The notes under the pieces are model-generated. The model had not been told where the DNA came from and ran no database searches. It saw only the letters and a program-made list of their open reading frames with translations. The translations under genes and the position numbers were made by a program. From Acidobacteriota bacterium (lineage in GTDB: Bacteria; Acidobacteriota; Thermoanaerobaculia; Thermoanaerobaculales; Thermoanaerobaculaceae): a stretch of DNA of 46,888 nt. Shown here in pieces: positions 3,217 through 8,220 of this stretch; position 1 is the stretch's first letter, and each line of letters opens with the position of its first letter. The DNA lies in the NCBI GenBank assembly GCA_004298115.1, contig SCRJ01000058.1, forward strand, positions 1-46,888. The letters run 5' to 3'.

Positions 3217-3245
3217 CGGCCGCCCGCCGGGCGGCCGTTCTTTTC
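3217..3245 (+). terminator. intrinsic terminator of the sigma-factor operon
   Basis: A perfect 9-bp GC stem (cggccgccc / gggcggccg, three-base loop) is followed by ttcttttc. It lies 30 bp after the stop of the second Spy-like gene. Confidence 0.75.
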
Positions 3246-4075
3246 GTGTACCTATGGGGCGGGCCGCCGCGCGCGTTCTCTCGTGCCCTCCGACAAGCGA
3301 CCACCGGGCTCCGGCCAGCCGCCCCCCGCGTCGTCACGGTTTCTGTAGCGGCCGATGCTCGCATCGGCCGACGAGTTGCGCGTCCTGTCCGTGTGGGACG
3401 CGCGCGCCGCGCGCGTTTCTTCGTGCCCTCCGGAAAGCGACGGCCGGGTTCCGGCCAGCCGCCCCCGCATCGACGAGGTCTCTGTAGCGGCCGATGCTCG
3501 CATCGGCCGACGGGTTGCCTGTCTTGTCCGTGTGGGACGCGCGCGCCGCGCGCGTTTCCTCTTGCCCTCCGACAAGCGACCACCAGGCTCCGGCCAGCCG
3601 CCCCCCGTATCGACGAGGTCCCTGTAGCGGCCGATGCTCGCATCGGCCGACGGGTTGCGTGTCCTGTCCGTGTGGGACGCGCGCGCCGCGCGCGTTTCCT
3701 CTTGCCCTCCGCAGAGCGACCGCCGGGCTCCGGCCAGCCGCCCCCCGCATCGTCACGGTCCCAGCATCGGCCGGCGCCCCCATCGGCCGACGAGTTGCCT
3801 GTCCTGTCCGTGTGGGACGCGCGCGCCGCGCGCGTTTCCTCTTGCCCTCCGACAAGCGACCACCAGGCTCCGGCCAGCCGCCCCCGCATCGCCCCGGTTT
3901 CTGTAGCGGCCGATGCTCGCATCGGCCGACGGGTTGCGTGTCCTGTCCGTGTGGGACGCGCGCACCGCGCGCGTTTCCTCTTGCCCTCCGACAAGCGACC
4001 ACCGGGCTCCGGCCAGCCGCCCCCCGCGTCGCCACGGTTTCTGTAGCGGCCGATGCTCGCATCGGCCGGCGGCCT
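3246..4075. repeat. six-unit tandem array of ~140-bp palindromic repeats
   Basis: The phrase gtagcggccgatgctcgc recurs at 3345, 3484, 3624, 3903 and 4043, and a diverged copy aligns near 3764, giving a period of 139-140 bp. Each unit has palindrome A (arms cggccgatgc and gcatcggccg around TC), then gtgtgggacg, then palindrome B (alternating CG), then a constant block (ccctccgacaagcgaccacc...ggccagccgcccc). The first unit starts inside the block at 3246. Long open frames on both strands here are a by-product of the repeat and are not genes. Confidence 0.85.
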
Positions 4076-4469: not shown

Positions 4470-5231
4470 ATGGTCAAGCAGAGGAGAAGTTCCACGTTGT
4501 TTGCGCTCGGTATTGCGGTTCTGGTGGCCGTGGCTGTGGCGGCGCCGGCGGGGGCTCAGATCCACCAGTTTGGAAAGACTCTGGTCGGCGCGCAAGGGAG
4601 CATGAGCGCGACGACCCAGGGAGGCAGCGGTAGCCCGAACGGTGACAAGAACTCCACGCACGGAACGTGCTCTTGCGCCGAATGTATCTACCTCGACACG
4701 TACGACCCAACCAACCCTCAGTCAGGCGACCTGATCGCCAGCACCACTACGACCCTGCAAAAGGGCGTGCCCTATCTGATCACTATCAAGGGAACCTACT
4801 CGGTTTGGGCAGTGAGTTGGTGGGTCGGTAACGGCCAGGGTGCGTCGGAGGCAGCGCCCCAGTACCCGTCGCCGGGGACAACCAATGGCCGCGTGGCAGC
4901 CGATTGGGAGTACCTCTTTGCTTGGTACACGCCAACAACTCCTGCCATAAGCCCCCTTCCGGTCCACCTGCCCTACCAGGGCATCAGTCTTGACGGCGGG
5001 ATTACCTACAATGATTATGTGCCGCTGGGCGGTCAGTTCTATTCCCCGACCCACATGTACCAGTATCTCGTTGAAGGTCAGGGGAGCACGGCGTCCTTCA
5101 AGAAGAACGACTTCCCCACCAGTGACAACTACGGTCGATTCAGGATCTGCGTCCAAAAGCTCGTTCCGTGCGGCTCAATCAAGGACGACAACGGCGGTGG
5201 CGACGACGGAGACCCAGGCGGTCACAGCTAG
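4470..5231 (+). CDS. secreted Cys-containing protein of unknown function, paralog 1
   Basis: A 253-residue exported protein with a signal peptide of residues 1-29 (cleavage AGA|Q). I do not recognise the family. Clear paralogy to 6775-7491: shared QGSMSA (42-47), a Cys cluster CxCxxC (67-72), YLITIKGTYSVWA (102-114), YQGISLDGG (169-177), FKKND (210-214) and RICVQKLxPCG (226-235). Five cysteines (67, 69, 72, 227, 234) are kept in both. The N-terminal trio could bind a metal or form disulfides with the C-terminal pair. The acidic Gly/Asp tail (238-253) is specific to this copy. ATG 4470 is preceded by aaaggagaagg and follows a typical pattern; a strong terminator follows. It may be a structural or adhesive surface protein, but nothing proves this. 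Confidence 0.85.
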   Translation: MVKQRRSSTLFALGIAVLVAVAVAAPAGAQIHQFGKTLVGAQGSMSATTQGGSGSPNGDKNSTHGTCSCAECIYLDTYDPTNPQSGDLIASTTTTLQKGVPYLITIKGTYSVWAVSWWVGNGQGASEAAPQYPSPGTTNGRVAADWEYLFAWYTPTTPAISPLPVHLPYQGISLDGGITYNDYVPLGGQFYSPTHMYQYLVEGQGSTASFKKNDFPTSDNYGRFRICVQKLVPCGSIKDDNGGGDDGDPGGHS

Positions 5232-5847: not shown

Positions 5848-6492
5848 GTGATCAGCATCGCCGTTGCCGTGCAGCCGGCCCTCTGGGCCGAGTTGCTCGG
5901 CATCATCTTGGAACACGAGCCCGGCATGAAGGTCCTCGGCAACGCAGCCAGCGAGGACGAGATCCTCGCCCTCACCGCAAAAGACCCCAACTCCGTGGTC
6001 CTCTTCGACTTCGAGGCGCTTGGCCCGAACGGTGCCGGGGTCATTGCGAGGATACATCGGGCCGCACCCCGTGCGCGCGTGTTGGTCCTGGCGAGGCGCT
6101 CCGGTGAGGAGACCGTCGCGGCGGTGCTCCGGGCAGGGGCGGCCGGACTGGTCGGCAAGCACATGGCCTACAAGACGGTCCTCGATGCGATCCGTGCCGT
6201 GGCGGTCGGCGAGGTGTGGGCCAACCGTTGGACGACGGCCCAAGTGATCTCACAGCTCATCGCAACGGGCCGGCCCGAACCGGACGACGTCTCGTTCACT
6301 CTCACCCGCCGCGAGTGGGAGGTCGTGAGTGCCGTCGGTCGCGGGCTGCGCAGCCGCGAGATTGCGCTCGAGCTCGGGATCAGCCCGAAGACCGTCAAGT
6401 CTCACCTCAGCAACATCTTCGGCAAGACCCAATTGAAGGGCCGTTTCGCGCTCGCGTTGTGGGCTCAGGGTAACCTCCCACAAAAGGCCTAG
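5848..6492 (+). CDS. NarL/FixJ-type regulator with atypical receiver
   Basis: A 214-residue two-domain protein. A receiver-like domain covers residues 1-120, with Asp54 (VVLFDFEALGPNG) and Lys104 (AAGLVGK) in the phospho-acceptor and conserved Lys positions. The acidic pair that normally ends beta-1 and binds Mg2+ is replaced by Val-Gln (ISIAVAVQPA), and the usual Thr/Ser before the switch is Ala. A LuxR-type HTH covers 151-208 (LTRREWEVV, ISPKTVKSHLSNIFGK). GTG 5848 was chosen because upstream sequence in frame has no domain; no good ribosome site is visible, so the start is uncertain. There is no kinase nearby. Its position between the two secreted paralogs suggests it controls them; that is inference. 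Confidence 0.8.
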   Translation: MISIAVAVQPALWAELLGIILEHEPGMKVLGNAASEDEILALTAKDPNSVVLFDFEALGPNGAGVIARIHRAAPRARVLVLARRSGEETVAAVLRAGAAGLVGKHMAYKTVLDAIRAVAVGEVWANRWTTAQVISQLIATGRPEPDDVSFTLTRREWEVVSAVGRGLRSREIALELGISPKTVKSHLSNIFGKTQLKGRFALALWAQGNLPQKA

Positions 6493-6529
6493 GCCCATCA
6501 GGGCACGGCGCAGCCCTCCCGTCTACCGA

Positions 6530-6558
6530 TTGGCACGCCATTCTGCGAACGTTACTTT
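6530..6558 (+). promoter_or_regulatory. putative promoter of the paralog 2 leader
   Basis: TTGGCA at 6530 is separated by 17 bp from TACTTT at 6553. The -35 matches five of six consensus positions, the -10 only three. It would start RNA near 6565, just ahead of the structured leader. Confidence 0.4.
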
Positions 6559-6606
6559 ATTGCCATGTTGGGTGATGTGTCTCGTATTGGACGGATTTTT
6601 AGTCGC

Positions 6607-6671
6607 TTGGCTTGGCCGGGAGCCAATAGTGAAACCGGCCACCACCTGAGAAGGTGCACGCCGGTTTTTTT
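6607..6671 (+). promoter_or_regulatory. candidate pseudoknot/terminator attenuator in the leader of paralog 2
   Basis: Hairpin ttggct (6607-6612) / agccaa (6621-6626) carries the loop tggccggg. Seven loop bases (6613-6619) are perfectly complementary to ccggcca at 6635-6641, giving an H-type pseudoknot. The same downstream bases form the 5' arm of an intrinsic terminator: aaccggc with gccggtt, an inner cacct/aggtg stem with a GAGA loop, then seven Ts (6632-6671). The two folds exclude each other, as in a transcription attenuator or riboswitch. The coding start is 104 nt downstream. No known riboswitch consensus was recognised. Confidence 0.5.
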
Positions 6672-6774
6672 GTCGATGGAGGCGGCAACGACGGGCACTG
6701 AAGCAACACGCGTCCTGGAGACGGGGGATCGGAAACCAGAGGGAGTGAAGCTAGAGGAAGCGTGGAGGAAGCCA

Positions 6775-7491
6775 ATGAAGAACCAGTGGAAAGTGCCTGT
6801 GAACGTCGGCGCAGTGGTGTTGGTCACCCTGGTCGGGGCGGTTGCGGCCAGCGCCCAGATCAATGACTTCGAGAAGCGGCTCACCGCATCGCAAGGGAGC
6901 ATGAGCGCTGTGGGCCAGAGAGTCGCCGGGACCCAGTGTACCTCGCTTTGCAGTGAGTGTTTCTGGCTTGACACATTCGCTTCCCCAGACCCGGCTGGTG
7001 GAAACCTGATCGCCCACTCGGCGGCGAGGTTGGACAACGGCGCTCTCTACCTCATCACCATCAAAGGAACATACTCCGTTTGGGCGGCGAGTTGGTATGT
7101 CAGTCCTGGCCAGGGCTTCCCGGAGAATGCACCAATGTTCCCAACGCTGGGAGTGGTCAACGGGCATGCGTACGCCGACTGGGAGTGGATATTTGGCTGG
7201 TTCACGCCACCCAACCCTAGCGACCCGAGCACGACCATCCCCTTGCCAGCTCCCCTTCCGTTCCAAGGCATCAGCGTCGACGGGGGCTCCACCTACACCC
7301 AGCCAGACCCCATAGGGGGAGACGGCTACAATCCGGCCCACGTTTACCGGTATCTCGTGGTGGGACAGGGTCTCCAAGCGTTCTTCAAGAAGAATGACGT
7401 CCCGACGTACGACAACCAGGGGAAGTTCCGGATCTGCGTGCAGAAGTTGACCCCGTGCGGTGACCTCACCGGCATGGCAGTAAGTCAGTGA
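6775..7491 (+). CDS. secreted Cys-containing protein of unknown function, paralog 2
   Basis: A 238-residue exported protein with a signal peptide of about residues 1-27 (ASA|Q). It is a paralog of 4470-5231, sharing the QGSMSA segment (40-45), a Cys trio (55, 59, 62; here CxxxCxxC), YLITIKGTYSVWA (92-104), FQGISVDGG (163-171), FKKNDVPT (204-211) and RICVQKLTPCG (219-229). It lacks the acidic C-terminal tail of paralog 1. ATG 6775 has a good ribosome site (tggagg). It has its own promoter candidate, attenuator-like leader and terminator, so it is expressed as a single-gene unit. Family and function are unrecognised; the Trp- and Tyr-rich middle (101-145) would suit a carbohydrate- or surface-binding beta domain. 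Confidence 0.85.
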   Translation: MKNQWKVPVNVGAVVLVTLVGAVAASAQINDFEKRLTASQGSMSAVGQRVAGTQCTSLCSECFWLDTFASPDPAGGNLIAHSAARLDNGALYLITIKGTYSVWAASWYVSPGQGFPENAPMFPTLGVVNGHAYADWEWIFGWFTPPNPSDPSTTIPLPAPLPFQGISVDGGSTYTQPDPIGGDGYNPAHVYRYLVVGQGLQAFFKKNDVPTYDNQGKFRICVQKLTPCGDLTGMAVSQ

Positions 7492-7693: not shown

Positions 7694-8130
7694 TCAGGTC
7701 ACGTTTCGGGGGAGTGTCGGGGTGCCGGGCGAGGCGATCGCGGGGTGGGCGGACTCGAGCACGTAGCGGTGCGGGTCGACGTCGGCGAGCTTCGCGCTCT
7801 CGAACAGCGTGTACGTTGCGGCGGCCACCTCGGCGCCGCGCTTGGAGTGCGAGCCGTAGTGGTTCTTGCGCCCTACAACCACCCCACGCAGGGCCCATTC
7901 CGCGGTATTGTTGTCCAGCGGCACCCGAGCATCGGTCAGAAACAGCGTCAGAGCCCCGGCCACAGCGGGAGCATGTAGTCGATCGCCCTGCCCAGCGAGC
8001 TTTGCGGCGGCGTGGCCGACTTGGTCTCGTATGCCCAGCTCCGCAGGCGGTCGACGATCGGGCGCGAGCGCTCCTCGCGCAGCCTCGCTCGCAGCTCCAA
8101 CGCAAAGACCAACCCAACCCAATGGGTTGA
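7694..8130 (-). pseudogene. IS66-family transposase remnant (frameshifted, 5'-truncated)
   Basis: The minus strand encodes the C-terminal part of an IS66 DDE transposase in two frames. The upstream frame (down to about 7950) reads ELRARLREERSRPIVDRL then YMLPLWPGL. The downstream frame continues LTLFLTDARVPLDNNTAEWA, then the GRKNHYGSHSKRGAEVAA and ESAKLADVDPHRYV blocks that are IS66 hallmarks. The join is at a CTCT dinucleotide near 7950; removing one CT restores LWPGLTLFL. The N-terminal two thirds and the other IS66 genes are missing, so it is inactive. No terminal inverted repeats were found. Confidence 0.85.
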
Positions 8131-8220
8131 TCTCCGGGGGCCACTGCAGGTGGGTCCATCGGACACATGGCCTCTCCGAGGGGATCCGGCCCCGCGTTTC
8201 GACTCGTGATTGCCTACCCC

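Follow-up and report, generated by a model that had tools for sequence, protein, structure and literature searches.

Introduction

Riboswitches of the preQ1-I and SAM-II classes are H-type pseudoknots with the terminator or the ribosome site in the 3' strand. The leader described here would share with them the pairing of a loop with a downstream strand of the expression platform, if a local pseudoknot proposed for it earlier is formed. However, Rfam finds no sequence of these classes in the window (the whole stretch of 46,888 nucleotides that was analyzed), and the pairing is not conserved.

Comparison with the c-di-GMP-II riboswitch (RF01786; 3Q3Z) reveals an identical 3' half, with GGA, the GCC of P2, GUGA, and AAACCGG. 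In addition, a terminator is placed on this core, and a secreted-protein gene follows downstream, as secreted or lipoprotein genes do in the genus mates. On the other hand, P2, P3, the kink-turn G, and the UGG are altered, the 5' half of the aptamer-like part folds as another strong hairpin, and the Rfam score is far below the cut-off. In 3Q3Z, the ligand contacts are A13, A14, U37, G39, U60, A61, and C68-A74 (PMC7288161). Variant c-di-GMP families, such as c-di-GMP-II-GCG, exist separately in Rfam (PMC12452182). They are altered relatives of the c-di-GMP-II aptamer, as the present leader seems to be, whereas none of them was listed as a better match to the window.

We consider that the leader is probably (at about 70%) a transcription attenuator with a c-di-GMP-II riboswitch as its ancestor, and that its own sensor half has been remodelled or has decayed. 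This turns an unexplained pseudoknot into a specific hypothesis: a secreted-protein gene would be under the control of a c-di-GMP-derived attenuator. A changed form that still switches would show how far the c-di-GMP-II aptamer can drift, whereas one that no longer switches would capture a riboswitch in decay. The leader is ordinary in kind and is a single, unrepeated case, of mild interest because the riboswitch may have been remodelled or may be dying.

Layout of the leader

The features of the leader and its two flanking genes are listed in Table 1. The promoter-like pair reported in the sequence-only reading is present; it is weak, with 8 of 12 consensus positions, and a promoter scan was silent on it. 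A putative transcription start near 6565 would fall just ahead of the aptamer-like part. The ATG of the downstream gene is located 104 nt past the terminator, as had been described.

Table 1. Features of the leader and of the genes on either side of it
Feature	Position	Strand	Basis
LuxR-type response regulator, upstream gene, GTG start	5848..6492	+	Pfam Response_reg and GerE, both above cut-off
Putative promoter-like pair, TTGGCA (6530-6535) and TACTTT (6553-6558), spacer 17 nt	6530..6558	+	sequence
Strong 14-bp imperfect hairpin of the changed 5' half	6562..6616	+	folding against shuffles
P1 5' arm in the c-di-GMP-II-like reading, GGUG(AU)G; partner CCACC (6639-6643)	6571..6577	+	R1 alignment
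Stretch aligned to the P2 5' arm, kink-turn strand, and P3 5' arm	6579..6593	+	R1 alignment, column check
Loop UAGUCGC, aligned with the family UGGUCAC	6600..6606	+	R1 alignment
Hairpin and loop pairing proposed earlier, possible antiterminator, not conserved	6607..6641	+	sequence, shuffles, relatives
c-di-GMP-II aptamer 3' half, intact, GGAGCCAATAGTGAAACCGGCC	6619..6640	+	conserved columns; 20-mer identity (6618-6637) to RF01786 riboswitches
Intrinsic terminator, 5' arm formed by AAACCGGC of the core	6632..6671	+	fold energy, z-score
Ribosome-binding site GGAGGA, 5 nt upstream of the ATG	6764..6769	+	sequence
Secreted-protein gene, family unknown, downstream	6775..7491	+	sequence comparison

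Natural family

Thirty-eight natural aptamers were aligned, and the covariance model R1 was built from the alignment. Covariation, taken across the structure as a whole, supports P1, P2, P3, and the pseudoknot (UCAC with GUGA): cells in which both sides had changed numbered 135, compared with 47 in shuffles. The covariation score was 0.438 versus 0.148 in shuffled alignments, none of 500 shuffles was as high, and slid controls were all far lower.

R1 gives 63-66 bits to three riboswitches from two species of the same genus as the window, two in G005 and one in G006, and these precede secreted or lipoprotein genes. The Rfam cut-off misses two of the three canonical c-di-GMP-II riboswitches of this genus, and Rfam probably under-calls the class in these bacteria. 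Canonical-looking copies were seen at L186:1448-1541 (G005:C97) and L189:2035-2128 (G006:C79), where Rfam gives 43.0 and 43.5 bits (cut-off 53.5) and R1 gives 63. Tandem c-di-GMP-II aptamers approximately 170-210 nt apart were also seen, at L117:5629-5861 and L145:775-963, in one Acidobacteria and one Chloroflexi genome.

Intact 3' half

The 3' half consists of GGA from the kink-turn, GCC from the 3' strand of P2, AAUAGUGAAACCGG as the pseudoknot strand and ligand-binding core, and CC from the 3' strand of P1. It keeps all 19 positions that are conserved in at least 34 of the 38 natural aptamers, and fits the conserved pattern GGAGCC-A-R-U-R-GUG-AAACCG-R-C. By nucleotide search of 60 related genomes, the 20 letters at 6618-6637 (GGGAGCCAATAGTGAAACCG) were found to be identical in three genomes of the same order. 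All three copies are inside RF01786 riboswitches scoring 54.5-56.5 bits, above the Rfam cut-off, and these riboswitches precede genes starting with a signal-peptide-like sequence. Among 149 genomes of the class, GAGCCAAYRGYGAAACCGRC occurs with no mismatch in G097, G034, G028, G027, and G005 in addition to the window; every exact match except that in the window is a riboswitch by covariance models.

A search of approximately 85,000 genomes with GGAGCCARTRGTGAAACCGR gave 86 matches in 84 stretches, all at places with at least 51 bits by R1, some of the matching sequences having gone into the building of R1. In viral contigs, the pattern shortened by one base matched two further riboswitches and one coding sequence, which was seen three times. 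The latter is an exact chance match to the core, with an R1 score of 19.4 bits. Four one-mismatch matches to the core outside riboswitches, three of them in long open frames, have R1 scores of only 10.7-16.8 bits. The 20-mer pattern is expected by chance in this genome at about 6e-5, by a simple equal-base count.

The best reading is that the 3' half descends from a c-di-GMP-II riboswitch. The sequence-only reading had recognized no known consensus, which was wrong, as the c-di-GMP-II 3' core lies within the feature. Its proposal of a candidate new riboswitch is not supported either: the conserved part is that of c-di-GMP-II, a known class, and on present evidence the leader does not represent a new one.

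Scores of the covariance models

At the gathering threshold, Rfam gave no match in the window. At a loose threshold, c-di-GMP-II was matched at 14.5 bits (cut-off 53.5) and sul1 at 12.8; an overlapping match from the same clan, with a lower score, was left out of the Rfam output. The 14.5-bit match is the best cis-regulatory one in the window, but it is only the fourth in the whole genome, and is therefore no evidence when taken alone. R1 gives 25.1 bits at 6557-6651, which is the best score in the genome (the next is 13.3; E 0.002), compared with 45-90 bits for known members. This is not proof, because, across the 149 genomes of the class, R1 also scores one 23S rRNA region at 29-38 bits in several genomes and some coding stretches at 20-27 bits. 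The argument is based on the exact core, the position in the leader, and the terminator built on the core.

It should be mentioned that the region matched by the c-di-GMP-II model in 23S rRNA genes (L219-L227, from G110, G047, G080, and others of the class) is the conserved GGAGGCUUUGAA...GGAGCCAAUGGUGAAAUACCACC, which has the same GGC/UGA...GGA/GCC and GUGAAA elements. The kink-turn architecture is possibly shared, and the region is a source of false positives.

Changed 5' half

The 5' half retains 7 of 11 strongly conserved positions. The four changes are in one G of P2, the kink-turn G, the first G of UGG, and the A of UCAC. The last of these is changed to G, which still permits a G-U pair, and the same UCGC is found in G005. 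The kink-turn G, which is U in the window, and the first G of UGG are each present in 38/38 members of the family. P2 reads GUC/GCC with a U-C mismatch, and a closed P2 with the G-A and A-G pairs of the kink-turn is not formed. P3 has five pairs around a mismatch, two of the pairs being wobbles, in place of a helix of approximately 8 pairs; the loop that this poor P3 would present has UAG at the position of UGG. These departures suggest that the sensor was remodelled or is decaying. The canonical nested fold has an energy of +5.9 kcal/mol in the window versus a family median of -10.8. The hairpin at 6562-6616, in contrast, has an energy of -20.8 kcal/mol (z -2.8), and one of 200 shuffles was as good.

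A weak trace of the family is seen in this half: when the 5' half alone was shuffled and the 3' half was left unchanged, a profile search gave a score as high in 22 of 1000 cases. The changed form of the leader has no second copy in the genomes searched. Complementary P3 or P1 arms with fewer than two mismatches were not found upstream (6300-6620). Two hand placements, with GGU 6571-6573 as P2 or with the 6562-6616 hairpin as a long P3 presenting the loop GUAUUGG, were rejected: each keeps some features and loses P1 or the pseudoknot.

Within the preferred explanation, the leader might be an ordinary working c-di-GMP-II riboswitch with unusually diverged P2 and P3. P1 can be drawn with five pairs under the R1 alignment, and UCGC 6603-6606 can pair with GUGA 6629-6632, including one G-U, to form the pseudoknot of the family itself. 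Furthermore, those contacts of 3Q3Z that are invariant in the family (U37, G39, A61, and A69-G73, in our own mapping of the numbering) are kept in this alignment. Nevertheless, the score far under the Rfam cut-off, the alteration of two invariant G residues, the mismatch in P2, the poor P3, and the unfavorable canonical fold make this sub-case doubtful. A remaining response of the leader to c-di-GMP is likewise tentative: possible, and on the doubtful side. The genome encodes 13 GGDEF domains, which belong to c-di-GMP enzymes. In another form of remodelling, the c-di-GMP-II core would have been kept and the sensor rebuilt as the 14-bp hairpin plus a local pseudoknot, with the ligand specificity changed or lost. 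This seems unlikely; if true, it would be a natural case of one riboswitch class becoming another regulator.

Terminator and attenuation

The terminator arms, AAACCGGC at 6632-6639 and GCCGGTTT at 6660-6667, enclose an inner hairpin, and a run of seven T (6665-6671) ends the structure. The strength ascribed to it earlier was borne out, with an energy of -19.6 kcal/mol for the terminator alone and z = -3.6 for 6625-6680. The stretch 6632-6641 has two alternative pairings. A terminator complementary to the same core, with AAACCGG as the 5' arm, is found in 60 of 87 relatives (about 70%). Because the relatives show this same arrangement, transcription attenuation through a shared terminator 5' arm, as proposed in the sequence-only reading, is well supported: the leader would act as an attenuator by its intrinsic terminator and the alternative pairing of the 5' arm.

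The intrinsic terminator is built on the aptamer 3' half in such a way that AAACCGGC can be part of the aptamer or of the terminator, but never of both. Without an upstream partner, it would pair with GCCGGTTT, and the RNA would end near 6671. If it is held by the 5' part, the polymerase would read into the secreted-protein gene. In the ancestral class, the overlap suggests that the ligand holds this strand and turns the gene on. In the present leader, the strand might be held by such a ligand-stabilized fold of a damaged c-di-GMP aptamer or by the local 6609-6619/6635-6643 pairing. As a third option, nothing holds it, and the gene would be mostly off.

Local pseudoknot

The pseudoknot described in the sequence-only reading can be drawn exactly as proposed. 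TTGGCT (6607-6612) pairs with AGCCAA (6621-6626) in a 6-bp hairpin, and the letters of the loop, TGGCCGG (6613-6619), match CCGGCCA (6635-6641) as a perfect complement. It differs from the pseudoknot of the c-di-GMP-II family. In a rival explanation, the leader would be a new attenuator or riboswitch built on these two stems, now working independently of the c-di-GMP-II fold. The pairing is perfect and overlaps the terminator arm, and when the leader was shuffled by dinucleotides, an H-type pseudoknot this long (stems of 6 and 7 bp or more) arose in only 1 of 1000 cases. The whole window, scanned on both strands, contains a single such pseudoknot; roughly one per window scanned would be no surprise. 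Moreover, the loop/3'-arm pairing is the predicted fold of the pre-terminator region when the terminator is absent.

However, neither stem is kept in seven aligned relatives: only 1-3 of 7 pairs are found in the 7-bp stem and 0-4 of 6 in the hairpin, the very outcome that had been named as refuting the proposal. In the two stems, letters from nearby upstream sequence pair with the conserved GAGCCAA and ACCGGCC. These bases are conserved in the known class for other reasons, so that their constraint needs no new fold, and the pairing is represented by one sequence only. An independent new regulator is quite unlikely. The pairing may still act as an antiterminator in this single leader, though it is not conserved.

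Other explanations

The border between the intact and the changed letters is sharp, near 6617-6618. This might be caused by misassembly or mis-sequencing, in which the first half of a normal c-di-GMP-II leader was swapped for other sequence. The assembly is in 203 contigs, and the nucleotide search of the 60 related genomes found this 5' half in no other genome. Against this, the contig is normal on both sides, the weak resemblance of the 5' half remains (p about 0.02), and the 5' part alone folds better than chance; an artefact of this kind is improbable. That the structure is a mere terminator of the upstream luxR-type gene, a same-strand gene whose stop codon lies 140 nt before it, combined with a chance core match, is very improbable given the chance expectation above, none of the 86 genome matches outside riboswitches, and a core in the right place with the terminator built on it.

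Flanking genes and surroundings

A copy of the LuxR-type regulator, 76% identical, is present in G005 of the same genus, and the leader is absent after this copy. The downstream secreted protein is 53% identical to its neighbor at 4470-5231. The two paralogs are adjacent, and a riboswitch-like leader is found only at the second. No convincing relatives beyond this neighbor were found in the 60 related genomes, in the close relatives within a species-genome collection, or in viral contigs, and the role of the protein therefore gives no hint of a ligand. The search for homologous leaders through related proteins likewise led only to the adjacent paralog, and the leader of 4470 is without an R1 match. 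The AlphaFold model of the downstream protein, with a pLDDT of 42, was set aside.

Elsewhere in the window, the region 3240-4050 is GC-rich intergenic sequence with a repeat period of approximately 140 bases, which shows up as a series of terminator-like GCGCGCGCCGCGCGCG sites, nearly identical to one another, and as open frames that are repetitive. On the minus strand, 7694-8168 holds a remnant that by eye resembles the C-terminus of an IS66-type transposase (LDNNTAEWALRGVVVGRKNHYGSHSKRGAEVAA).
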